57,611 nucleotides of DNA from Alcanivorax limicola (lineage in GTDB: Bacteria > Pseudomonadota > Gammaproteobacteria > Pseudomonadales > Alcanivoracaceae), in NCBI RefSeq assembly GCF_019931215.1, contig NZ_JAIOUB010000001.1, forward strand, positions 780,334-837,944, given 5' to 3'. This document shows positions 44,787-56,360 of this stretch, one piece after another (positions within the stretch are counted from its first letter, which is position 1; every line of letters begins with the position of its first letter). Made by a program: the position numbers and the translations under genes. The notes beneath the pieces are model-generated. The model worked only from the letters and a program-made list of their open reading frames with translations. It searched no databases and was not told where the DNA came from.

Positions 44787-44945
44787 GGCGCCACTTTATT
44801 CAAGCATGCTTTCACGCGTTGTTGACTCTGCCGCAGTCGCGCGCTGACCTCACAGTCATAGATCACTCCCCCTCCCGGTAGGACCATCACTGGAGCATGG
44901 CCGCGGCCATCACACCCACCAGGGATGAACGACGGAGCAAGGACT

Positions 44946-46151
44946 ATGAAGCGAATTGCCGTGTGGATGGCAGTGTTGATCACGCTGTGCGGCCTGATGT
45001 TCGGGGCAGCGCTGGCGCAAGGCGCTCAGCGCAGCGGCCCGGAATTGAGCGATGAGCAGAAACAGGCATTCCAGCAGTTGGCCCCCGGCGTCGAGATCAC
45101 GCCGGAGCTGATCGAGCTGATGCAGGACATCACCTACAACCCGGACATGAGCATTGACGCACGGCTGCGTGCCATTGGCCGACTGTCGGGGCTGGATCGC
45201 CTGCCGGAAGACCAGCGCATGTCCACCACCATCTGCATCTGGGATCCTGCCGGGCGCGCCGGCCCGATCTTTACGGCGGCCGAAGAGCAGCGTATCCGTG
45301 CGGCGGAATACGGTTTGCAAATCAACATGGTGCCGTATACCAACGAAAGCGTGATGGTAGATGAGCTGCTCAGCGCGCGCTGTGATGCGGCGCTGATGAC
45401 CGGCCTGCGGGCGCGGCAGTTCAACAAGTTCACTGGCACGGTGGATGCCATTGGCGCCCTGCCCACGGATGAACACATGCGCATCCTGTTGGAAGTGCTC
45501 AAGCATCCCAGCAATGCCGGGCGCATGGTTGATGGGGAATATGTGGTGCTGGGCGTCTTCCCCGCCGGTGCCGCGCATATTTTCGTCAATGATCGCGAGA
45601 TCAATACGCTCGGCAAGGCAGCAGGCAAGCGTGTGGTTGTCCTGGATTATGATCCCATGCAGGCGCAGATGGTCGCCGGCCTGGGCGCCACGCCGGTGCA
45701 GGCGGACATCACCCGCGCGCCGGGTATGTTCAACAACGGTGTGGTGGATGTCCTGGCCGCGCCACTGGTGGCCTATGAAGCGCTGGAACTGTATCGCGGG
45801 CTGGACCCGGACGGCGGCATTATCGATTACCCGCTGACCCAGCTGTCCATGCAGCTGATCGGGCGGCGGGCAAAATTCCCCAACGAAATCGCACAGCTGA
45901 TCCGCGAGGCCACCCACGAAGCCTATGACGACATCATGGCGTTTCTGAATCGGGAAGCGGAACGTGTACCGGCCAGATGGTGGATCGAAATCCCTCATGC
46001 AGACCGGCTCGAGTACGAACTGATGATGGAGGATGCGCGGGTAGAATTGCGCAATCTGGGTTATTACGACGGCGAGATGCTGCAACTGCAACGGCGCATC
46101 CGGTGCCGTATGGCACCGGACCGCAGTGAGTGTTCCGACCCGCGCGAGTAA
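44946..46151 (+). CDS. AdeT1/2-like periplasmic solute-binding protein, copy 1
   Basis: The 401-residue protein has a signal peptide ending near ALA (residue 24). A helical extension follows (about 28-85; LAPGVEITPELIELMQDITY) and then the solute-binding core with ICIWDPAGRAGPI, YTNESVMVDELLSARCDAAL and NNGVVDVLAAPLVAYEALEL. The C-terminus has IRCR and, after a short gap, SECSDPRE. Two paralogues follow at 48980 and 52910. AdeT1/2 from Acinetobacter were described as RND-type drug transporters, but these sequences have no membrane domain and look like exported binding proteins. The TRAP permease gene downstream is the likely partner. Confidence 0.82.
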   Translation: MKRIAVWMAVLITLCGLMFGAALAQGAQRSGPELSDEQKQAFQQLAPGVEITPELIELMQDITYNPDMSIDARLRAIGRLSGLDRLPEDQRMSTTICIWDPAGRAGPIFTAAEEQRIRAAEYGLQINMVPYTNESVMVDELLSARCDAALMTGLRARQFNKFTGTVDAIGALPTDEHMRILLEVLKHPSNAGRMVDGEYVVLGVFPAGAAHIFVNDREINTLGKAAGKRVVVLDYDPMQAQMVAGLGATPVQADITRAPGMFNNGVVDVLAAPLVAYEALELYRGLDPDGGIIDYPLTQLSMQLIGRRAKFPNEIAQLIREATHEAYDDIMAFLNREAERVPARWWIEIPHADRLEYELMMEDARVELRNLGYYDGEMLQLQRRIRCRMAPDRSECSDPRE

Positions 46152-46160
46152 CCCCCGGGA

Positions 46161-48749
46161 TCAGGGTGCGCTGGCGCGCAGGCGCAAGGTCTGCAGCGCC
46201 GGATCCGCATTGATGTCGGCGTCCGTATACGGGAAGCGAATCCACGCTTTGTCGGCATAGGCCTCGGTCATGTTGCGGAAGAACGGCGAGGCCGGGTCGG
46301 TGGACTGGGAATAGGTCACAAACCCTTCTGCCACCGGCCTGCCCTGCTCATCCCAGGTCACCGTCTGAATATAGCTGTTGCCAAAGTTCACCGCGTAGCC
46401 GTCCTCTGTCAGCGGCCCGCGCGAGCTCGCGATGGTAAAGGCGCCCTCGAACCCTTCCCCGCCAAACACCGGAATGCGCGCGTCCTGCACACCGGAAGAC
46501 GAGATACCGACAGGATGAATGGCGGAGAACTGAATATCTCCCATCGGGGCATCCAGCGGAAAGCCGGAATCCACCGCAGCCTGCACACCATCAGCAAAGG
46601 CCGTTGATACCAGCGGGCTCAGGGGATTCAGCCCGGCCGGCGTGTTCACCGGGTCACTGGCGCTGAACGGGGTCAACCACATGCCCGGCACATCCAGCGG
46701 CAACGGATTGATGCCGCGCCAGAATTCACGCCAGATATGACCGCCACGGGCATCCAGGTTATGGGTGCCGTCCCAGGCAGCAAGCACCTCACACGCCGGC
46801 GCAACATCCACAGGGCCACTGCTACCGAGCAAGGGCAACGGCACTGCGCAGTAGCTGTCGAGCACGGTGTCGCGGGCAAGCCGCTCCGTCATCAGACGGC
46901 TATCAAGCACGATGTCCTGCAGCAGTGGCATGTCAAAGGTCGTACCGGGGCGGCCGTCACTGCCATCCAGACGATCCTGGACCTGGCGTATGCACTGGCG
47001 CGTGCGCAGTGAACGCGCCGACTCTTCATCACCGATGACGGCAGCAAAACCGGTCAGAGGCTCTTCCGGATGAGTCAGCCAGTAGCTGTCATTGCAGTTA
47101 TGCACCCAATCGCTGCGTGTCAGGCTCGGCAGATTGCCGGGGCCGAAAATGCCCGGGGCCGGTGCGTCGTCATCGGTGTCCCAGGCACAGTCGGTGCGAC
47201 TGCCGTCCAGAATCGGCAAACCGGGCTGCAACAACGCGAATACCGGCGTCAGCGCGGTGGGGCACGTGAGCACCTTGCTGTCCGGCACGTTGGGCACCAC
47301 GGTCACATCGCCATAATAGGAAGGCTTGCCGGGACCGGTGGCAATCGTATTGACCCAGGGGGTGCCGAGCACACTGGCATGCAGCGCGACAAATTCCTCG
47401 AAGCTGCCGGCGCGGTTCCAGCGGAAGAACTGGTTCAGCAAGCGATCATTTTCGGCGTTAGCGTCGCGCAGGGTGTAGGCCTTCAGCGGTGACCAGCTGA
47501 GAATCGGCACGCCGGAGACTTCGAATTCCAGCATCGGCCCGTAATGGGAGTGATACAGCGTGCGCTGCTCCTGACGCAGCGTGCCGTCCTGCTCCAGCAC
47601 ATCAATGGTGATATCCCGGGCTTCCATATCGATGAGCTCGCCATCGAACAGGTAGCGCGTCGGGTCCAGCGGGTCCAGCGTCAGCTCGTAGAAGCTGAAG
47701 CGGAATGCCGTGGACACCGTGTGACTCCAGGCGAACTTGTCGTTGAACCCGATCAGCACCGCCGGCAAGCCGATCAGCGCAGCCCCCATGATCTCGATGC
47801 GTTCGTCCGAAGGACCGACTTGCAAATGCGCCATGTACAGCCGTTCGGTCTTCTCCCAGGGGAAATGCGGGTTGCCGAACAGCATCGATTCACCGTTGTG
47901 GGTGGTCTCCCCGGACAGTGCGTACATATTGCTGCCGAAGGGCAGCTCACCGCCCAGCGGGAAAGGCAGCAGGCTATCCACGCCATCCAACAGGCCACCC
48001 GCCAACTCGGTGAGCTGCGCTATGATGTCGTCCGCGTCGAGCGGCAACGGGATGTCGCCGGTGAGCGCTGGCGGTGCGGCATTGGCAACGCCGTCAACAA
48101 AGACGGAAGAGCTTGCCAGTACCGCCAGGCGGAAATAACGGCGATACATGTCGTTTTCCTCCAGCGCCAGCAGCCAGTCCGCATCGCGACAGGCCAGATG
48201 CCGACCACTGTGCTGCCCCGCCAGAATCTCCTGTCGGTAACGGTTGAAACCGTCAACAAAGCCCCGGGATGCCGCCAGCACTTCCGGGTCACTGACCTCA
48301 CGCAGCGGCGCAATGGCGTCATCGGTAGCCAGGCTGCGCCAGAAAAAATCGGCCTCGATATTGGTCGTCGCCGCACCGTTGGCAGGAATGGTGTAGCGGC
48401 CGTCCCCGCCCAGATAACGGGCACGCAGCCCACGGATCGTCAGGGTGTCTTCCGCCAGCAAGCACAGATTGTCTTCCGCCTGGGCATACCCGTAGCCATA
48501 ACCCATGCTGGCGAAATTTGCCGCCGTGATGTGGGGAATGCCCTCACCGGTACGGCGAATGGTGACGTCGTAATCAGTGGCCGGCGGCGGCAGCTCGGGG
48601 TCAACGCCGGAGCCCGGCGCGCGCAGATTGCTGTCACCGCCGCAGGCCGCCAGCGCCAACGTGCTGGCCAGAAAGCCCGCCGTTGCCCCCTTGCGCCACC
48701 GCAGACTTTTACTGTTCAGGTCCTTATTGTTCGTATAGGTGCTGTGCAT
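46161..48749 (-). CDS. Penicillin-acylase-family lipoprotein, acylhomoserine lactone acylase-like
   Basis: The 862-residue protein is an Ntn hydrolase precursor. It has a lipobox LALAAC (Cys36), an alpha chain, and the self-cleavage site GSNMYALSGETTHNGE, which would expose Ser273 as the beta-chain nucleophile. The histidine in FGNPHFPWEK falls at beta-chain position 23, as in PvdQ and related AHL acylases, and the block GLPAVLIGFNDKFAWSHTVS follows. The substrate is not certain; long acyl-homoserine lactones or acylated peptides are likely. It is encoded between two AdeT-like genes and converges with copy 1 at a nine-base gap. I chose the ATG at 48749; another lies at 48767. Confidence 0.85.
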   Translation of the reverse strand: MHSTYTNNKDLNSKSLRWRKGATAGFLASTLALAACGGDSNLRAPGSGVDPELPPPATDYDVTIRRTGEGIPHITAANFASMGYGYGYAQAEDNLCLLAEDTLTIRGLRARYLGGDGRYTIPANGAATTNIEADFFWRSLATDDAIAPLREVSDPEVLAASRGFVDGFNRYRQEILAGQHSGRHLACRDADWLLALEENDMYRRYFRLAVLASSSVFVDGVANAAPPALTGDIPLPLDADDIIAQLTELAGGLLDGVDSLLPFPLGGELPFGSNMYALSGETTHNGESMLFGNPHFPWEKTERLYMAHLQVGPSDERIEIMGAALIGLPAVLIGFNDKFAWSHTVSTAFRFSFYELTLDPLDPTRYLFDGELIDMEARDITIDVLEQDGTLRQEQRTLYHSHYGPMLEFEVSGVPILSWSPLKAYTLRDANAENDRLLNQFFRWNRAGSFEEFVALHASVLGTPWVNTIATGPGKPSYYGDVTVVPNVPDSKVLTCPTALTPVFALLQPGLPILDGSRTDCAWDTDDDAPAPGIFGPGNLPSLTRSDWVHNCNDSYWLTHPEEPLTGFAAVIGDEESARSLRTRQCIRQVQDRLDGSDGRPGTTFDMPLLQDIVLDSRLMTERLARDTVLDSYCAVPLPLLGSSGPVDVAPACEVLAAWDGTHNLDARGGHIWREFWRGINPLPLDVPGMWLTPFSASDPVNTPAGLNPLSPLVSTAFADGVQAAVDSGFPLDAPMGDIQFSAIHPVGISSSGVQDARIPVFGGEGFEGAFTIASSRGPLTEDGYAVNFGNSYIQTVTWDEQGRPVAEGFVTYSQSTDPASPFFRNMTEAYADKAWIRFPYTDADINADPALQTLRLRASAP

Positions 48750-48882
48750 AGGTCGACCCCGGATCATTACGAATATCCCTTGTTCTACTCCGACACCGCC
48801 GGGACCGGGAGGGGCCGGCTACGATAATCCCTCAGGGCTTACAAAAATCCTAAACAGAGAAGATCCATTGACTCTTCAGTCA

Positions 48883-48903
48883 CCCGGCTCGTCCTACCGG
48901 GTC
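48883..48903. promoter_or_regulatory. Possible operator before AdeT-like copy 2
   Basis: ACCCGG and CCGGGT flank a nine-base centre in the divergent gap between the acylase and AdeT-like copy 2. TTGACT at 48869-48874 could be a -35 box, but its -10 is weak. The assignment is tentative. Confidence 0.3.
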
Positions 48904-48979
48904 ATGTACGCTTTCGGGGCCCACTGTTAGAAAGGAGCACACTACCTCGTGCAGTACCGCCAGAGGCCAGGGAGAACAC

Positions 48980-50173
48980 ATGACACAGATAACCAGAACA
49001 AGGCGCGTGCTACGCCTGCTGTTGACCGTCGGCATCGCCAGCCTGCTCGGCGTGGGTCAGGTTGCCGCCGTGGACATGACGGCCGCCCAGCGCGAAGAAC
49101 TCAACCGCCTGGCGCCGGGCGTGACGATCACCCCCGAGATGGCAGAGCAATTGCGCGCCATTGCCTATGATCGCTCGCTGCCTCTGGAACAACGGGTCGC
49201 GGCGATGCGCCGCGTGTCCGGGTTCCCGGACGGCGTCATGGTCAAACGGCGCATCTGTATCTGGGACATTGCCGGGCGCAGCGGCCCCATTTATCAGGCA
49301 GCTGAAGACCAGCGGATGCGCATTCTGGAATTCGGTGTCGATGTAGAACTGCTGCCCTATACCAACGAGGGCGTCATGGTGGAAGAACTGCACTCGGGCC
49401 GTTGCGATGCCGCACTGATGACCGGCTTGCGGGCGCGACTGTTCAACCAGTTCACCGGCACCATCGATTCGGTCGGCGGCCTGCCCACCGACAAACATAT
49501 GCAGGTACTGCTGCAAGTGCTGGCCGATCCGCGCATGGCCGACAAGATGGTCAGCAACCGCTATGTGGTGATGGGTATTGCACCAGCCGGTGGCGCCTAT
49601 GTGTTCGTTAACGACAAATCCATCAACTCACTGGCGCGTGCGGCCGGCAAACGGGTGCCGGTACTGGAATATGATCCGACCCAGGCGCGCATGGTGTCGC
49701 AGATTGGCGCCACGCCGGTGGCGGCGGATCTGATCAGTGCACCGAACATGTTCAACAATGGCGTCGTGGATGTGTTACCCGCGCCGCTGATCGCCTATGA
49801 AATTCTGGAGCTGTATCGCGGCATGGGTGCCAACGGCGGCGTCATCGATTACCCGCTGGCGCAGATCACCATGCAATTGATCGGGCGGGAAGATAAATTT
49901 CCGAACGAAATTGCGCAGCTGGTGCGGGAAGCATTTTTTGAAGGCTATGAAGAAATCATGGCGCAACTGAATGCAGAAGCCGCCAAGGTGCCAGACCGTT
50001 GGTGGATTGCGATTCCGGAGGAAGACAAGCAGGAATACGAAACCATGATGCAGGATGCGCGCCTGCAACTGCGGGAGGAAGGCTATTACAGCGCAGAGAT
50101 GCTGACGCTACAGCGGCGCATTCGTTGCCGATTGGATAACAACCGTGGCGAATGCACCAATCCGGTGGAGTAG
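48980..50173 (+). CDS. AdeT1/2-like periplasmic solute-binding protein, copy 2
   Basis: The 397-residue protein has a signal peptide ending near VAA (residue 30), then the same helical extension as copy 1 (LAPGVTITPEMAEQLRAIAY). Core motifs are ICIWDIAGRSGPIYQAAED, YTNEGVMVEELHSGRCDAAL and GATPVAADLISAPNMFNNGV, with the terminal RIRCRLDNNRGECTNPVE. It is very like copy 1 over the whole length. GGGAG before the ATG supports the start. It is flanked by minus-strand genes on both sides and so needs its own promoter. Confidence 0.82.
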   Translation: MTQITRTRRVLRLLLTVGIASLLGVGQVAAVDMTAAQREELNRLAPGVTITPEMAEQLRAIAYDRSLPLEQRVAAMRRVSGFPDGVMVKRRICIWDIAGRSGPIYQAAEDQRMRILEFGVDVELLPYTNEGVMVEELHSGRCDAALMTGLRARLFNQFTGTIDSVGGLPTDKHMQVLLQVLADPRMADKMVSNRYVVMGIAPAGGAYVFVNDKSINSLARAAGKRVPVLEYDPTQARMVSQIGATPVAADLISAPNMFNNGVVDVLPAPLIAYEILELYRGMGANGGVIDYPLAQITMQLIGREDKFPNEIAQLVREAFFEGYEEIMAQLNAEAAKVPDRWWIAIPEEDKQEYETMMQDARLQLREEGYYSAEMLTLQRRIRCRLDNNRGECTNPVE

Positions 50174-50202
50174 CTGAGCCTTTCCGTACAGGTCCTTGCC
50201 CG

Positions 50203-51567
50203 TCAGTGAAGCCGATCCACTGGCGGGAAACCCTCGAGCCCACTGAACATATCGACACGCGTGTCGGAGAACATATCCAGCTCCGGCGCCAGCGCCTGAA
50301 TGTAGCGGTCGAAATACAGGAACTGTTTCAGCAACAACGCAAATTCCCGCGGGAAGCGAATGCCATGCTGTTCGCCGATCTTGACGATATCCATGAGCAG
50401 GCGATTGACCTCGCGCTCATTGCGATTGCCTTCCAGCAGACTGGCGGGATCCACATTTTCCAGACGTGACTGGAACTGCTCCAGATCACGGGTCAGCGCA
50501 TCCACACTGACCGTATCGCGAGTCATGCCAATCTGGATCATGGATTCCGCCACCGCGCGGTGATCGCCGTTGCTGATGCCGTCCAGAAAACGGGACATGG
50601 CTTCCCAGGTATTCTTGCGAATACGCCCCACCATGCCGAAATCAATAAAACCGATACGGCCATCGTGGAGCAACATCAGGTTGCCGGCGTGCACGTCCGC
50701 ATGGAAGAAATCGCACAACATGAGACTGGAGAACCAGGTATTGAGGGCCGCCACCAGCGTTTCTGCCGGATCATCCACATGGCGCCGCAGCACCTCCAGA
50801 TCGGTCAGCGGCACACCATGGAAGCGCTCCATGGTCAGCACCTTCTTGGTGCTCAGTTCGCGATAAGGGCGCGGCGCCACGGCGCGGGTGTTGCCCGTCA
50901 TCAACAGAAATTCGTTGAAGCGCTCCAGGTTCTGCGCTTCCTTGAGAAAGTCACATTCCTCCAGCATGGAGCCCTGCAACTCCTCGATCACGCCAGAGAC
51001 CGCGGAACGGGACAGGCCCGGTGTCAGCATCTCGAAAACACGCGCAGCCACGTAGAGGAAGTTGAAATCGGTGAGCAGCACGGTACTGACACCGGGCTTC
51101 TGCACCTTGATAACCACATCCTCCCCGGTGTGCAATCGCGCGGCATGCACCTGGGCGATAGACGCCGAGGCCAGCGGCGCCGGATCCACATGGCTGTAGA
51201 GCGCACTCAGAGGCTTGCCCAACTCACTTTCGATGGTCTCGCGGATATAGTGGAACGGCAGCGCCGGTGTGCGATCCAGGCACTTCTGGAACTCCTCGAC
51301 GTAGGCTTCCGGGAACAGGGACGGCGAGCTGGCGATAAATTGACCAAGCTTGATATAGGTCGTGCCGAGGGATTCCACCGTCTCGCGGAGTAGCACTGGC
51401 GCCGGCGGTCGATGGCCGAGCAGCCAACTCGCGCCGGCACGCAGCAGGACGGCGCCAGTCTGCACCACCCGAAAGCCACCGCGCGCGGTGTCCCGGGCCA
51501 GGCTCAAACCCGCACGGCGGGCGGCCATCCGCTCACGCATCTGCTCAACCTCAGTCTTTCTACTCAT
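50203..51567 (-). CDS. ABC1/UbiB-family atypical kinase
   Basis: The 454-residue protein has the UbiB/ABC1 family elements: TYIKLGQFIASSPSLFPEAY (KxGQ, about 70-89), the Ala-rich loop ASIAQVHAARL, VVIKVQKPG, HADVHAGNLML and FIDFGMVG (DFG). Unlike UbiB it has no clear paired C-terminal membrane helices. Family members act in ubiquinone or lipid handling as ATPases. Its place between AdeT-like genes suggests a lipid-related task, but that is a guess. It runs opposite to the TatT-like gene and has a divergent gap of about 210 bases. Confidence 0.87.
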   Translation of the reverse strand: MSRKTEVEQMRERMAARRAGLSLARDTARGGFRVVQTGAVLLRAGASWLLGHRPPAPVLLRETVESLGTTYIKLGQFIASSPSLFPEAYVEEFQKCLDRTPALPFHYIRETIESELGKPLSALYSHVDPAPLASASIAQVHAARLHTGEDVVIKVQKPGVSTVLLTDFNFLYVAARVFEMLTPGLSRSAVSGVIEELQGSMLEECDFLKEAQNLERFNEFLLMTGNTRAVAPRPYRELSTKKVLTMERFHGVPLTDLEVLRRHVDDPAETLVAALNTWFSSLMLCDFFHADVHAGNLMLLHDGRIGFIDFGMVGRIRKNTWEAMSRFLDGISNGDHRAVAESMIQIGMTRDTVSVDALTRDLEQFQSRLENVDPASLLEGNRNEREVNRLLMDIVKIGEQHGIRFPREFALLLKQFLYFDRYIQALAPELDMFSDTRVDMFSGLEGFPPVDRLH

Positions 51568-51671
51568 CAGCTCGGATCACCTTATGTTCGAATGCAGAGA
51601 CGGCTATCATCACGGGGCATTGACGCTTGCCGAACACCCTTAATGTATAGCTTACTATGCGGCCATAAGCG

Positions 51672-51717
51672 TTTGTAATTGCATACTTTGCTTTTTGTAA
51701 TTGGCGCTTGTGCCAAT
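51672..51717. promoter_or_regulatory. Direct repeats and palindrome upstream of the TatT-like gene
   Basis: TTTGTAATTG occurs twice, at 51672-51681 and 51694-51703, 22 bases apart (two turns). The second overlaps the palindrome ATTGGC-N6-GCCAAT (51700-51717). This could be a regulator site serving the TatT-AdeT-TRAP genes or the divergent kinase gene. Confidence 0.4.
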
Positions 51718-51778
51718 AATGACCGTTCGGTACTGTTGCCGTCTTGGTGATTCAGAACAATAACATGGAGAACGCTGC

Positions 51779-52843
51779 ATGAAGTCTTCTTTTGAGACTC
51801 CGGGTGTGACTGGCGCTATGAAGCCAGCAATGAAGAATCTGTTTGGCCAGGTCAGGCTGGCCGCTCTCGCGTTGGTCGTCATTGCGCTTCAAGGCTGTGG
51901 CATCATCTACAAGACCACCGGTGACGTGCTGATCAGCTACGGCGGCAACGAAATGGTGCCTTACCTGCTGACCTATGACGACGTCGCCATGGGCTGCGCC
52001 ACCGGTGAAGCCCTGACCCCGCTGCTGATGTCCTTTGAGGCCGTCGGCTCCAATCCTGACCGTCTCGCGCCACTGGTCTTTACGGTCGCCGCCTCCTGCA
52101 CCGAAGCCCTGGCCACCGAACAGGAACTCCGTTACAGCCGCGCACTCAAAGATGGCAACGTCAATGAGGCTCAGGATGCGCGTGCCCTGCAGAAACGCTA
52201 CCTGCGTGTCACCGCACAGCGCTACCACACGGCGTACCAGCGCGTCACCGCCCAGTATGGCGAAGCCGACAACGGCAAATGCCCGCGTCTGCGCAAGGAC
52301 TTCGATGAGCTGGTGTGGATGGTTGGCCAGATCGCCGGCGTTCAGGCCGTACTGAATGATGGCGCTTCTGATGCCTCTCTGGGCATCCCGCGGGATATCG
52401 CCGCCAAAGTAGAGCGCGGCGCCGCCTGCCTGGATAACGAAAAATGGTGGGGCGTACCCAATGGTACCCGCGCCGCACTGTGGAGCATTCTGCCGATGTT
52501 CGCACCGGAAGGCGCTGACCCCTGGAAAGAAATGGATCGCTCCGTGCGCATGGGCTTCGAGCAGGGCGTACGTCTGCCCAGCGCCTTGGCCGCCATTGCC
52601 GCCCACAGCGTCGGTGATGAGCAGCGTGTGCGCCGCTCCATTCGCGAGTTTGCCAATAACAATAACAACCTGGATCCGAACTACGCCATGCTGGATGCGC
52701 TGGCCGAGTTCCTGATCACAGGGGTATCTGACCGCATGTGGACAGAAGCGACAGGACGCCGCACGCCATTCAATGCACTGGGTACATTCTGGGACGACGC
52801 AAGATCTTCACAGCCAGACTTCGACATTGATGACCTGTTGTAA
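51779..52843 (+). CDS. TatT-like TRAP-associated lipoprotein
   Basis: The 354-residue protein has a lipoprotein signal ending LQGC (Cys40). The start of the mature part resembles the TRAP transporter T-component: a helix GEALTPLLMSFEAVGSNPDRLAPLVFTVAASC and YLRVTAQRYHTAYQRV follow one another as helical hairpins (quoted in pieces). TatT of Treponema forms a TPR-like trimer and binds its solute-binding partner. AdeT-like copy 3 and the fused permease follow on the same strand, which supports the name. Internal ATG codons at residues 14 and 18 are alternative starts. The assignment is by pattern and context and needs a profile search. Confidence 0.7.
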   Translation: MKSSFETPGVTGAMKPAMKNLFGQVRLAALALVVIALQGCGIIYKTTGDVLISYGGNEMVPYLLTYDDVAMGCATGEALTPLLMSFEAVGSNPDRLAPLVFTVAASCTEALATEQELRYSRALKDGNVNEAQDARALQKRYLRVTAQRYHTAYQRVTAQYGEADNGKCPRLRKDFDELVWMVGQIAGVQAVLNDGASDASLGIPRDIAAKVERGAACLDNEKWWGVPNGTRAALWSILPMFAPEGADPWKEMDRSVRMGFEQGVRLPSALAAIAAHSVGDEQRVRRSIREFANNNNNLDPNYAMLDALAEFLITGVSDRMWTEATGRRTPFNALGTFWDDARSSQPDFDIDDLL

Positions 52844-52867
52844 TCTGAACATTAATAACATGCTTGG

Positions 52868-52889
52868 CAGCACCCTGCTCCGGGTGCTG
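52868..52889 (+). terminator. Hairpin between the TatT-like gene and AdeT-like copy 3
   Basis: CAGCACCC and GGGTGCTG form an 8-bp perfect stem with a six-base loop in the 66-base gap. No U tract follows. It could partly terminate or stabilise one segment and so set the ratio of lipoprotein to binding protein. Confidence 0.45.
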
Positions 52890-52909
52890 TCGATCAGGAG
52901 GCAGTAACC

Positions 52910-53926
52910 ATGCGCTTTTCTCGTTTTCTCTCCGTTGCTCTTGCCGCGCTTGCTCTGGGCGTTACCTCCCAGGCCAGTGCCAACACCCAACTGCGGTTGT
53001 GCGTGTTCGACATCATCGGCACCTCCGGTGACATTTATAACCTGATGCAGGATTACCGCACCGCCGCTCTGGGACAGGGCGTCGACTTCAGAATGCGCGC
53101 CTTCACGGATGAAAACATCGCTTATGAAGAGCTCACTGGCGGCCAGTGCGACGTGGCAGCCATTACCGGTATCCGTGGCCGTCAGTTGAACAGCTACACC
53201 GGCAGCCTGGACTCCATTGGTGCCGTGCCCAACTACGATGCCCTGCGCATGGTGGCTCAGGTACTGGCCAGCGAGAATCCGCGCATTACGCCCAATCTGC
53301 GTAACGGCCCTTACGAAGTCATCGGCATTGCGCCCATGGGCGCCGCCTACCTGTTCGTGAAGGACCAGAGCATCAACAACGTCAATGCGCTGGCGGGCAA
53401 GTCCATCGCCGTAATGGAATATGACGTGGCCCAAGGGCGCATGGCCTCCCGCGTCGGCATGTCACCGGTGATGTCTGACATCACCAACTTCTCTGGCCGT
53501 TTCAACAACCACAGCGTGGACATCTGCTTTGCGCCGATGGCGGCCTACGGGGCGCTGGAACTGTATCGCGGCATGGGCGAAGACGGCGGCATCGTCGACT
53601 ACACCCTCGGCCAGCTGACCATTCAGCTGATTGCACGTCATGACAAGCTGCCGGAAGACTTTGCTGTCTGGTCACGCAAGTACATGTTCGAGGAAATCTA
53701 CGACCGTGCCCAGTCCGTCGTCGACAATGCCTACAAGGACGTGCGCGACGATCGCTGGATTCGCATCAGTGAAGAAGACACGCTCAGCTACGATGAAATG
53801 ATGCGCGATGCCCGTATCGACCTGACCCAACAAGGCGTCTATAACGCAGACATGATGTCACTGCTGCGCAACATCCGCTGCCGTCTCGACGCTTCGCGTG
53901 GTGAGTGCAGCGAAAGCCGCGAGTAA
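52910..53926 (+). CDS. AdeT1/2-like periplasmic solute-binding protein, copy 3
   Basis: The 338-residue protein has a signal peptide ending ASA (residue 24) and then goes straight into the core LRLCVFDIIGTSGDIYNLMQ without the extension of copies 1 and 2. Shared motifs include EELTGGQCDVAAITGIRGRQ, NFSGRFNNHSVDICFAPMAA, ALELYRGMGEDGGIVDY and the end RNIRCRLDASRGECSESRE. It is more distant from copies 1 and 2 than they are from each other. It is encoded between the TatT-like gene and the fused permease, making it the most likely primary binding protein. AGGAGG lies before the ATG. Confidence 0.82.
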   Translation: MRFSRFLSVALAALALGVTSQASANTQLRLCVFDIIGTSGDIYNLMQDYRTAALGQGVDFRMRAFTDENIAYEELTGGQCDVAAITGIRGRQLNSYTGSLDSIGAVPNYDALRMVAQVLASENPRITPNLRNGPYEVIGIAPMGAAYLFVKDQSINNVNALAGKSIAVMEYDVAQGRMASRVGMSPVMSDITNFSGRFNNHSVDICFAPMAAYGALELYRGMGEDGGIVDYTLGQLTIQLIARHDKLPEDFAVWSRKYMFEEIYDRAQSVVDNAYKDVRDDRWIRISEEDTLSYDEMMRDARIDLTQQGVYNADMMSLLRNIRCRLDASRGECSESRE

Positions 53927-54209
53927 CAACAGTTTGCCGTAATCAGCACTCATGCGGGGCCCAGGCGGCCCCGCATTGCTATGCCTACCCGCTGTGTATT
54001 CCGGATATACATTCCAGAGACATGCAATTACTGAAAAGCTGCCTTGAATGGCAGTTCTACGGTAGGCAGAGGGGCACAGGTCACATAGAATCAGCGATTC
54101 GCTTGAGTAACGTGAAATTCCGGGCCGGCAGTCTGGCGCCCGGGTCTTTCAAACCATCAGGTGTCTGGAGCAGATAACCGGCACCGTGATAACAACAACC
54201 GGGTGAACA
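53927..54209. other. Gap before the permease gene
   Basis: The 283 bases hold a 10-bp stem-loop directly after the binding-protein gene (53952-53976) and no convincing gene. A separate promoter for the permease may lie in the right half. Confidence 0.5.
53952..53976 (+). terminator. Stem-loop after AdeT-like copy 3
   Basis: ATGCGGGGCC and GGCCCCGCAT pair over 10 bp with a five-base loop, 26 bases beyond the stop. Only a short T-poor sequence follows, so it may be a partial terminator. Confidence 0.55.
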
Positions 54210-56360
54210 ATGACTACAGCGTCGCCTTCATTCAAGATAGCCAATCGCTCTGTCGGCGAATGGATATCCTCTCTCCCTACTCTCATTATTCTTCTGATCA
54301 CCATCTTTGTGGCGTCCGGCGAGATCATTCACTCCCAGCTACTGAAGGTCGGTGAGAACACCTGGGAAGAATACTTCCTGCTACGTGGTGCCGGTGTCGT
54401 CGGTGAACCCACCTGCGACAAGAACCCGGATATCGACGAACAGGTTCGCCGCACCGTCGAGCAGCGCGAGGCTGATGCAGCCGACGACCCGCTGGCCGGT
54501 ATGTTCGGTACCGATATCGACGAGGACGCGATACGCCGATCCATCGAGCGCTCAGTGCAGGTATGTCAGGGGCGATGGTCCCGCTTTGAGCGGATCGAGG
54601 AGCGGGTGACCCCGGGGGTGCGCGCCTTCCGGACCGTGGAGGTCGGCGTCTCGCGCATGATCACCGGCATCGGGGAGAGCAAGCGCACCCTGCTTGCTCT
54701 GCTGGTGCTGATCTGTGCGGCCACAGCCACCTTCAGCCGGCACCACATCGCCATCCGGCCAGTGCGTACGGTCCGCGATCATTATGTCTCCACCACCGCC
54801 CTGCTGGCGGCCAATACCATGCTGTTCGTGTCGTCGATCCAGTATCGCGAGCGACAGCTGATGAGTATTGCGGAGGGCATATCGGTCAGCCATTACAACC
54901 TCAACCTGATCTGGATTACCGGGTTCGGGGTGCTGGCGGCCATCAACATCTACCATCTGGCCAAGCGGCCAGCGGGGCTGGAGGCCGGCGGCAATTTCGG
55001 CAAGGCCCTGCTGACCATCCCGCTGTACGGCTTCATGTCCCTGACCGCCGGCAGCCGCTTCATGCTGGATGGCTACTACCACGGCATGAGCGTGTACCTG
55101 GGCATGATGATGGAGCACTCCACGCTGTTCCTGAACCTGGCCCTGTATATCTGGATCGGCATGATGCTCAAGCAGACCCGGATGGCCCAGTTGGTGTTCA
55201 ACGTGTTGCGCCCCTGGAACATGTCGCCGGAACTGCTGTGCTTTGTGGTGCTGCTGGTGACTGCGGTACCCACCGCCTACACCGGTGCCTCCGGGATCTT
55301 CGTGATCGCGGCGGGTGCGGTGATCTACAGCGAGCTGATGCGCGCCGGGGCACGACCACAGATGGCCCTGGCGACCACTGCCATGTCGGGCTCCATGGGT
55401 GTGGTATTGCGACCCTGTCTGCTGGTAGTGATCATTGCCGCACTGAACAACCAGGTGACCACCACCGAACTGTTCGGCTCCGGGGTGAAGATCTTCTTCC
55501 TGACCGCATTCCTGTTCTTCATCTACTCGCAGTTCGCGCGTAAGGAACCCGCCCGCATCGCGCCCTTCCGTGAAGCGCTGCCGGAAAGCATCCGTCGTCT
55601 GAAGCCGCTGATCCCCTATGTCATCCTGATGGCGCTGGTGATCATGTTCTTCGGCCAACTGCTGGACCGTCGCCTGGATGAGTTCTCGGCCCCCATCATT
55701 CTGCCGGTGATCCTGCTGGTGATCCTGCTGTATGAATATGTCTTCTCGAAGAAGACCGCCGAAGCACTGGGACTGGATGCGGACAAGACCTCGGGCAATG
55801 AAGCACGCCCCACCGGTTTTGAGCCTGCCCTGCGCAAGGCCACCAACGAAACCACCGGCCACATCGGCGCCCTGCTGATGTTGATGGCCCTGTCGGTGAG
55901 CGTCGGCGGTATCATCGAGCGCACCGGCCTGATGGAATCCATGCCGTCCGAGTTCGCCTCCATCTGGATCGCTGCCGCCATTCTGGTAGTGACCCTGGTC
56001 GGCATCGGCATGATCATGGACCCCTACGGTGCGGTGATTCTGGTCAACGCGACCATTGCCCAGGTGGCCTTTGCTGCCGGCATTGATCCATTGCACTTCT
56101 GGATGATCACGCTGGTGGCCTTCGAGCTGGGGTACCTGACGCCGCCCGTTGCGCTAAACCACCTGCTTACCAGGCAGGTGGTCGGTGATGACGAGGTGGA
56201 GAAGTCCAAGCTCACCACCGGGTCCTTCTGGGATCGCTATGAGAAGTTCCTGTTGCCCATTGCAGTGATGCTCACAGCGCTGGTGGTCGTGGCCTTCCTG
56301 CCACTGGCCTGGGACGGCCTGCACGAGTGGCTGTTCAAGAAAGTGGCGGTAGGCGGCTAA
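54210..56360 (+). CDS. TRAP transporter permease, fused small and large subunits (DctQ-DctM type)
   Basis: The 716-residue membrane protein joins a DctQ-like four-helix part (about 20-270) to a DctM-like part (about 275-710). The DctM half has repeats around TAYTGASGIFVIAAGAVIYSE and LVGIGMIMDPYGAVILVN. The N-terminal part has a large loop (about 45-160), probably periplasmic, with two cysteines, Cys69 in EPTCDKNPD and Cys119 in VQVCQGRW. Such a loop is unusual for DctQ proteins. TRAP permeases import solute with Na+ or H+ and a periplasmic binding protein. The AdeT-like and TatT-like genes upstream are the likely partners. A strong terminator follows. Confidence 0.85.
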   Translation: MTTASPSFKIANRSVGEWISSLPTLIILLITIFVASGEIIHSQLLKVGENTWEEYFLLRGAGVVGEPTCDKNPDIDEQVRRTVEQREADAADDPLAGMFGTDIDEDAIRRSIERSVQVCQGRWSRFERIEERVTPGVRAFRTVEVGVSRMITGIGESKRTLLALLVLICAATATFSRHHIAIRPVRTVRDHYVSTTALLAANTMLFVSSIQYRERQLMSIAEGISVSHYNLNLIWITGFGVLAAINIYHLAKRPAGLEAGGNFGKALLTIPLYGFMSLTAGSRFMLDGYYHGMSVYLGMMMEHSTLFLNLALYIWIGMMLKQTRMAQLVFNVLRPWNMSPELLCFVVLLVTAVPTAYTGASGIFVIAAGAVIYSELMRAGARPQMALATTAMSGSMGVVLRPCLLVVIIAALNNQVTTTELFGSGVKIFFLTAFLFFIYSQFARKEPARIAPFREALPESIRRLKPLIPYVILMALVIMFFGQLLDRRLDEFSAPIILPVILLVILLYEYVFSKKTAEALGLDADKTSGNEARPTGFEPALRKATNETTGHIGALLMLMALSVSVGGIIERTGLMESMPSEFASIWIAAAILVVTLVGIGMIMDPYGAVILVNATIAQVAFAAGIDPLHFWMITLVAFELGYLTPPVALNHLLTRQVVGDDEVEKSKLTTGSFWDRYEKFLLPIAVMLTALVVVAFLPLAWDGLHEWLFKKVAVGG

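Follow-up and report, generated by a model that had tools for sequence, protein, structure and literature searches.

A conserved lipoprotein, AdeT1/2-type binding protein and fused TRAP permease in Alcanivorax limicola: a probable importer of hydrophobic ligands

The genome of Alcanivorax limicola, a marine member of an oil-degrading family, carries a locus with three AdeT1/2 genes, a lipoprotein gene and a gene for a fused QM permease, all on the plus strand, and the question is whether these genes make up one transport system and of which kind. The window, i.e., the whole stretch of DNA that was analyzed, comprised 57,611 nucleotides. The initial annotation had described three paralogous binding proteins in this locus, with genes for an acylase and an ABC1 kinase interleaved. 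The genes, their coordinates and the paralogy were confirmed, as all three AdeT proteins matched PF19582 (AdeT1/2) at 258.8–268 bits (cut-off 27), and the two interleaved genes were also found, both on the minus strand. The features of the locus are as follows:

44925..46151, plus strand, AdeT_a: exported AdeT1/2-type binding protein, 408 aa, N-extended clade (PF19582, 268 bits)
46161..48767, minus strand, PvdQ-like N-acyl amidase lipoprotein (acylase): neighbor, outside the core (PF01804, 358.8 bits)
48980..50173, plus strand, AdeT_b: second AdeT1/2-type binding protein, 397 aa, N-extended clade (PF19582, 258.8 bits)
50203..51567, minus strand, ABC1/UbiB-like kinase: neighbor, outside the core (PF03109, 209.2 bits)
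51779..52843, plus strand, T-component-like lipoprotein: 354 aa, Gly directly after the lipobox Cys40, modeled as helical, without a Pfam or NCBIfam family
52910..53926, plus strand, AdeT_c: core AdeT1/2-type binding protein, 338 aa (PF19582, 261.1 bits)
53952..53976, plus strand, hairpin: perfect over 10 bp, in the gap from AdeT_c to the permease gene, not followed by a T-run
54210..56360, plus strand, fused Q-M type TRAP permease: 716 aa, DctM profile match

The lipoprotein gene and AdeT_c are separated by 66 bp. The region with the hairpin (53927–54209) had a folding z of -3.17, and the hairpin is possibly an mRNA stabilizer or attenuator. Since the acylase and ABC1 kinase genes lie on the minus strand, they share no common transcript with the plus-strand genes. 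The acylase reached 527.6 bits with the PvdQ equivalog model, under the cut-off of 950 for that model, and among 58 lipoprotein-found loci the near relative L010 was the only one with the acylase in this place. A single operon that includes both genes was rejected on the grounds of strand and of this acylase position. At 13 of these loci (L009–L015, L017–L019, and L021–L023), the ABC1 kinase gene is a direct neighbor of the core.

The analysis of the binding proteins showed that AdeT is related to DctP by profile-profile comparison (hhalign 97.6%, E 3.7e-12); the DctP profile PF03480 itself gave no match on AdeT by hmmscan (E ≤ 0.05) and none in the genome search. The AdeT family had already been placed nearest to the DctP TRAP binding proteins in PMC11467057. 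For residue conservation, 148 matches were reduced to 138 AdeT sequences by removing identical sequences and those shorter than 300 aa. All 138 kept the four Cys, and none kept the canonical carboxylate-binding arginine, whose position was set by a strand motif taken to mark the equivalent of SiaP Arg-147. Ala occupied this position in 115 of the 138 sequences, and Arg or Lys in none.

The lipoprotein had been labeled TatT-type, and that label did not survive the profile searches. No Pfam or NCBIfam model matched it at E ≤ 0.05, a PF16811 (TAtT) search of the A. limicola genome gave nothing on it at E ≤ 10, and none of 55 lipoproteins, the window protein included, was matched by PF16811 at E ≤ 0.1. 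The profile instead matched another gene of the same genome, located in a separate four-gene TatT-DctP-DctQ-DctM (TPAT) operon with Q and M unfused. Because PF16811 missed all 55 lipoproteins and matched this other gene, membership in the TatT family was rejected. The lipobox Cys was present in 33 of 36 lipoproteins. The model of the window protein was helical (pLDDT 88.8), and Foldseek aligned it with the TatT-like folds of 3u64 (prob 0.91, TM 0.43/0.52, but E 0.72) and 8g53 (prob 0.99); the matches to TatT were insignificant (E 0.4–0.72), and other helical folds ranked above them by E-value. A profile match to TatT was collinear over 252 columns with an E of 0.0028 (controls, P 0.21–0.56), at an hhalign probability of only 10.9%. 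At the level of sequence and predicted structure, the TatT likeness remains a remote similarity only.

In the permease, residues 313–698 matched DctM (PF06808) at 61.1 bits, hhalign related the M domain (about residues 265–701) to DctM at 99.6%, and in Foldseek the model and a fused QM structure could be aligned over 616 columns (IseQM and SiaQM fold). The DctM profile match and the structural alignment support the annotation of a fused QM permease. The Q part was weak by sequence, as residues 156–258 reached only 3.2% (E 0.013) against DctQ in hhalign. An insert of ~100 residues (~50–155) with invariant Cys69 and Cys119 lies between hydrophobic helices 1 and 2. Compared with the classical DctP-QM TRAP transporters SiaPQM and IseQM, the system has the same fused QM permease fold and a DctP-related binding protein; it differs in the additional lipoprotein, in the loss of the arginine, in the residues inserted between helices 1 and 2, and in the low score of its permease with DctM.

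Subsequently, the genes were traced across genomes. AdeT was found in 34 of 194 genomes of the order and the lipoprotein in the same 34, whereas the permease family was present in 33 of them and nowhere else, with permease candidates scored only in part in many genomes of this draw. The restriction of the permease family to AdeT genomes had a hypergeometric p of 1.7e-36 (194 genomes, relatedness ignored). In the exceptional genome (G173), the AdeT-lipoprotein pair is located at a contig end. Thus, the claim of a single system, for which AdeT genes in genomes without a TRAP permease would be damaging, was upheld. In a draw from the phylum, AdeT and the permease occurred in an identical set of 8 of 299 genomes; since seven of these eight were already in the order draw, the gain is a single new positive genome together with many negatives. 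Both the permease profile and the lipoprotein profile derive from lipoprotein-found loci, a bias partly offset by the independent Pfam AdeT profile and by the even genome draw. Gene order, counted by hand, was lipoprotein-AdeT-permease in 40 of the 55 lipoprotein loci and AdeT-lipoprotein-permease in 4; lipoprotein-AdeT occurred without the permease in 8, and the lipoprotein alone in 3. For 52 of the 55 lipoprotein genes, an AdeT gene of the same orientation lay no more than 3 kb away. The predicted lipoprotein, AdeT_c and the permease are a conserved, co-inherited unit.

These data also bear on the listing of AdeT in some Acinetobacter papers as part of RND drug-efflux pumps. AdeT1/2, the family to which AdeT_a, AdeT_b and AdeT_c all belong, is listed as RND efflux in PMC5622949, whereas here it is tied to one TRAP permease and a lipoprotein. 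PF19582 was the sole match on AdeT at E ≤ 0.05, with no RND family domain, and both the relation to DctP (hhalign; PMC11467057) and the co-occurrence with a TRAP permease in both genome draws stand against an efflux role. Nothing in the analysis supports the RND listing, which was rejected as scarcely credible. The literature searches found no paper that links AdeT1/2 to one specific permease and lipoprotein.

The conserved unit resembles the TPAT system of Treponema (TatT Tp0956/TatP Tp0957/TatQM) in combining a lipoprotein, helical in its model, with a DctP-type binding protein and a TRAP permease, and the T gene here adjoins the genes for the permease and for a DctP-type SBP that has no canonical arginine, which are traits of TPAT membership. 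A further hallmark of TPAT is a trimer of TatT that binds three TatP and has a hydrophobic pore. Ala replaces the canonical arginine in Tp0957, which has a hydrophobic pocket (PMC4646407), in line with the prevailing Ala in AdeT; Q and M are fused in Treponema too, and proteobacterial TPAT systems occur mostly in hydrocarbon degraders (PMC5812351). The lipoprotein here is, however, outside PF16811, the binding proteins belong to PF19582 and have four invariant Cys, the permease has a large Cys-bearing insert, and there are several binding proteins per permease. Despite the same logic of parts and the remote fold and profile likeness, a plain TatT/TatP (TPAT) family member, as the locus was first titled, is very improbable: it is contradicted at the profile level by the PF16811 result and by the separate, unfused TPAT operon that coexists in the A. 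limicola genome. Moreover, the order TatT-DctP-DctQ-DctM was found in 20 of 20 further TPAT loci, and the arginine position was Trp in 21 of 21 TPAT DctP proteins versus mostly Ala in AdeT. The sterol-binding protein BstC belongs to the TRAP T-component superfamily, and by comparison the window lipoprotein has no PF16811 match. The partners of BstC are not known to be TRAP proteins.

The next question concerns the surplus of AdeT genes, which the initial annotation had noted in the window and which proved common across genomes. The A. limicola genome has six AdeT genes versus one permease of this type; three lie elsewhere in the genome, and a second lipoprotein gene adjoins one of these. After removal of two fragments from 128 AdeT rows and one split piece from 68 permease rows, 57 of 126 AdeT genes were >15 kb from any permease of this family, and 13 of 67 permeases had no AdeT within 5 kb. 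Three of these 57 orphan genes belong to A. limicola itself; 52 of the other 54 were covered by 47 stretches, in one of which (L088) the AdeT gene had been missed by gene calling, and two at contig ends were left out. AdeT_a and AdeT_b fell into a clade of 40 (support 1.0), with AdeT_c outside. At least 60 residues preceded the first Cys in 34 of the 40 members of this N-extended clade versus 13 of the 98 other AdeT, a comparison blurred by start-codon choice. Beyond the tandems of the window's family, the clade consisted of L090 and of members from a single further family (f39), and each of these is an orphan locus.

This pattern gives some ground for a reading in which the core trio is an importer, whereas AdeT_a, AdeT_b and the orphan AdeT bypass the permease and serve in scavenging, sensing, or delivery elsewhere. 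The separate clade with its N-terminal extension, the orphan position of its outlying members and the many AdeT genes far from a permease agree with it. However, apart from the contig-end case, no AdeT genome in the draws examined was without the permease family, and all 138 sequences kept the four Cys and regained no Arg or Lys at the arginine position. We regard the bypass as less probable than AdeT_a and AdeT_b using this permease, as we infer they do.

The surroundings of the AdeT genes were compared as well. A shared enzyme beside the orphan genes was rejected, because among the first 25 of 130 Pfam families listed none exceeded 3 of 124 neighbors (up to two genes of 100–700 aa per flank, at 35 loci that represent 38 clusters formed at 65% identity). 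An AdeT gene lay ≤5 kb from a lipase-chaperone (Lif) gene in six of the seven genomes of the window's family, giving seven pairs where 0.57 were expected over all 34 genomes (6 fragments of 63 Lif rows left out); this linkage was absent in the other 27 of the 34. Cases picked by eye beside orphan AdeT genes were a lipase with Lif (L076 and L089), FMO-like genes (L081, L094, L106, and L139), FadL (L094), a P450 (L098), and a GDPD (L104); they are suggestive only, since the Pfam count gave no common family. With no common neighbor enzyme and the lipase-chaperone linkage absent in 27 genomes, the case for a lipid theme comes from a single family and from selected examples.

The best explanation, to which we give a probability of about 0.6, is that the locus encodes a TPAT-like TRAP secondary importer, with the core trio as one unit and the extra AdeT proteins feeding the same single permease. 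The ligands are probably hydrophobic. By the lipoprotein sorting rule, the lipoprotein is probably located at the periplasmic face of the outer membrane, where its helical bundle would receive a ligand of hydrophobic or amphipathic nature; fatty acids and products of lipid or hydrocarbon breakdown are the most likely candidates. The ligand would then be handed to AdeT_c, which would dock on the permease for import driven by an ion gradient, and AdeT_a, AdeT_b and the three AdeT encoded elsewhere may supply the same permease with other ligands or at other places. This importer reading is supported by co-occurrence, gene order, the relation to DctP, arginine loss, the TatT-like fold, the ratio of six AdeT to one permease, and the lipase-chaperone linkage; the missing TAtT match, weak Foldseek and hhalign scores with TatT, distant AdeT genes, AdeT-less permeases, and the weak Q part argue against it. 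The hydrophobic character of the ligand is weakened by the TRAP SBP Csal_0678, which has no arginine and was bound to polar ethanolamine (PMC4646407). An importer for small polar non-carboxylate ligands, i.e., amines or alcohols such as ethanolamine, would fit that precedent and is nevertheless unlikely, given the TatT-like partner, the Ala shared with Treponema TatP and the lipase-linked AdeT in one family, none of which is decisive.

A broader version of the importer reading is more tentative, with chances slightly below even. According to it, the locus would represent a second, unrecognized class of lipoprotein-assisted TRAP transporters for hydrophobic ligands, with a new, TatT-remote family as the T component and two interchangeable AdeT clades, of which the N-extended one acts in trans. 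If this class is real, the AdeT1/AdeT2 genes that are now counted among RND efflux components would be parts of import systems.

If the importer reading is right, an uncharacterized Pfam family of binding proteins, counted by some as drug efflux, would gain partners and a likely mode of action, and a second T-component family would be added to a transporter type of organisms living on oil and lipids. The locus would also offer a natural setting in which to see if several binding proteins can be accepted by a single TRAP permease. Because the core parts lie in one short cluster in non-pathogenic marine bacteria, the question of the ligand would be directly testable.

The core of the system comprises a lipoprotein, the AdeT1/2-type binding protein AdeT_c and a fused QM TRAP permease, and is accompanied by two further AdeT genes (AdeT_a and AdeT_b) and two genes of the opposite strand:

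44925-46151, plus strand: AdeT_a, PF19582 match
46161-48767, minus strand: PvdQ-like acylase
48980-50173, plus strand: AdeT_b, PF19582 match
50203-51567, minus strand: ABC1/UbiB-like kinase
51779-52843, plus strand: lipoprotein, no Pfam or NCBIfam family
52910-53926, plus strand: AdeT_c, PF19582 match
54210-56360, plus strand: permease, DctM match

The three AdeT proteins scored 258.8-268 bits with PF19582 and the permease 61.1 bits with DctM; the lipoprotein had no Pfam or NCBIfam matches at E<=0.05. The closest matches to the window were the fetched loci L010 (96%) and L009 (69%). A perfect ten-pair hairpin without a T-run (53952-53976) separates the AdeT_c and permease genes and could raise the amount of binding protein over that of permease. 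PvdQ-like acylase genes stand near AdeT/lipoprotein loci at two differing positions, in the window and in L020 (5557-7876), the latter copy being 40-42% identical. In addition, a weak match to the DctM profile (24.7 bits) at about 865-1299 of the window (minus strand) falls in a 594-aa frame that is probably another permease, of the ion-transporter type.

Cluster counting in 67 sequences (the window and L001-L066) showed that AdeT (60 sequences), the lipoprotein (51) and the permease (49) were the most widespread clusters, the next one reaching 17. A survey of 194 evenly drawn genomes of the order was performed at E<=0.001 for AdeT and the lipoprotein and E<=1e-30 for the permease, with AdeT detected by PF19582 independently of the home-built profiles of the other two. 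AdeT was found in 34 genomes, the lipoprotein in the identical 34 and the permease in 33 of them, and none of the three was found elsewhere among the 194; in the sole permease gap, G173, AdeT and the lipoprotein lie at a contig end. Thirteen families are represented among these 34, and some same-family relatives (G019, G020) lack all three genes. Across a phylum draw of 299 genomes, AdeT and the permease were confined to the same eight, seven of which were already in the order draw, while the eighth (G296) lies outside the order. The DNA order lipoprotein-AdeT-permease was observed at 40 of 55 lipoprotein loci, the others showing AdeT-lipoprotein-permease (4), lipoprotein-AdeT without a permease (8) or the lipoprotein alone (3), and 54 of 67 permeases had a same-strand AdeT gene within 5 kb. 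Shared genomes and gene order support the part of the initial annotation that places the lipoprotein, AdeT and the permease in a single system.

Window-type permeases at L127-L132 and L136 had no AdeT or lipoprotein gene recognised in the fetched stretch; both genes are located elsewhere in these genomes. In the window's family, 8 of the 13 core loci have two permease genes side by side (L009, L011, L017, L018, L019, L021, L022 and L023), and the window, L010 and L012-L015 carry a single one.

The permease model (pLDDT 81.8) matched IseQM (E 1.4e-10, 616 columns) and also SiaQM structures. By sequence, the M part is recognised clearly (99.6% over residues 265-701) and the Q part faintly (probability 3.2% over residues 156-258). 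About 100 residues separate the first and second hydrophobic helices. They include Cys69 and Cys119, both unchanged across 22 sequences; that this insert might serve in docking is a guess.

The same annotation had called the system TatT-type, which holds as an analogy with the lipoprotein-assisted TRAP (TPAT) systems and fails as a family label. At E<=10, PF16811 (TAtT) matched the A. limicola genome in a single place (C4:336963-337697, 256 bits), the first gene of a separate TatT-DctP-DctQ-DctM operon in which Q and M are not fused (L078 8730-12543, contig C4), and it matched 0 of 55 members of the lipoprotein family at E<=0.1. Strong PF16811 matches were present in 47 of the 194 genomes, this one included; loci fetched from 20 of the 46 others all had the four-gene set, and both systems were present together in 13 of 194 genomes. 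The lipoprotein model is helical (pLDDT 88.8, pTM 0.81) and had no PDB matches at E<=0.001. Treponema TatT (3u64) gave the top query TM-score among the 50 PDB matches listed (probability 0.91, TM 0.43/0.52, E 0.72), and 8g53, titled as a bacterial TPAT family transporter, reached probability 0.99 (TM 0.32/0.55). The profile-profile alignment with TatT was collinear over 252 columns (E 0.0028), yet with a probability of only 10.9%; three control comparisons covered 19, 42 and 25 columns (P 0.26, 0.56 and 0.21). Because of this model likeness and the collinear alignment as against short control alignments, distant homology with TatT is probable but unproven. Apart from the lipobox Cys, kept in 33 of 36 lipoproteins, four Cys are invariant in these 36 sequences. 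In E. coli, the residue after the lipobox Cys indicates the membrane destination of a lipoprotein; since among the 33 it is Gly (11), Ser (9), Thr (7), Ala (4), Glu (1) or Asp (1), this rule points to a predicted outer-membrane location for most of them.

The A. limicola genome has a single permease gene of this type, alongside two lipoprotein and six AdeT genes. Across the 34 genomes, AdeT genes numbered 126 and permease genes or partial genes 67; 57 of the 126 were orphans, lying more than 15 kb from any such permease. A tree of 138 AdeT proteins placed AdeT_c in an 18-member clade (support 1.0) that also holds the core copies of its family, AdeT copies next to second lipoprotein genes and a single orphan (L087). 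AdeT_a and AdeT_b belonged to a separate clade of 40 (support 1.0), comprising the family's tandem copies, the orphan L090 and orphan copies from one other family (f39); its members carry a short extra stretch at the N-terminus (median 85 residues ahead of the first conserved Cys vs 36). The initial annotation's picture of additional binding proteins fits this wider pattern; the use by AdeT_a and AdeT_b of the same permease as AdeT_c is the part that we infer. A second lipoprotein-AdeT pair (L075 7975-10373, contig C1 of the same genome) has no permease within 8 kb and lies near two other lipoprotein genes, one of the DUF4394 kind and one weakly hydrolase-like. The 2.3-Mb genome G101 (L081, L098, L106) has seven AdeT genes, one permease and one lipoprotein, its orphan AdeT genes adjoining flavin monooxygenases, a GMC oxidoreductase and a P450 gene.

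Profile comparison related AdeT to DctP (hhalign 97.6%, E 3.7e-12), and four Cys were invariant in all 138 AdeT proteins. The position of the ligand-binding arginine was located by a strand motif that we take to mark the equivalent of SiaP Arg-147; it holds Arg183 in a classical DctP of this genome and Trp in 21/21 TPAT DctP proteins. None of the 138 AdeT proteins had Arg or Lys there, the residues being Ala (115), Ser (10), Pro (4), Val (3), Gly (3) and Thr (3). According to PMC4646407, this arginine grips the carboxylate group of the ligand in TRAP binding proteins, and Treponema TatP has Ala at the position and a hydrophobic pocket. The same paper proposes a small set of TRAP systems for hydrophobic ligands and also cites ethanolamine binding by a protein that lacks the arginine.

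About 20 kb past the window, an orphan AdeT gene is clustered with two secreted-lipase genes and a lipase chaperone gene (L076 7500-12329); it lies ~240 bp after one lipase gene and beside the second lipase and the chaperone. Of the 7 genomes of the family, 6 have a lipase chaperone gene no more than 5 kb from an AdeT gene, against 0 of 27 others (7 pairs observed vs 0.57 expected, the copies having common ancestry). Single hand-picked neighbours of AdeT included flavin monooxygenases, FadL and P450, and an unselected neighbour count gave no common family beside orphan AdeT genes. TPAT systems of free-living proteobacteria belong mostly to hydrocarbon degraders, as stated in PMC5812351.

The kinship of AdeT1/2 with TRAP DctP proteins is already published, proposed from learned embeddings and structure (PMC11467057); AdeT1 and AdeT2 are classed under RND in PMC5622949. 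AdeT partnered with this permease and lipoprotein was not found in the literature searched, and since its coverage was partial, these partners may have been published earlier. In conclusion, the core system is a real, conserved TPAT-like TRAP importer, apparently uncharacterised.
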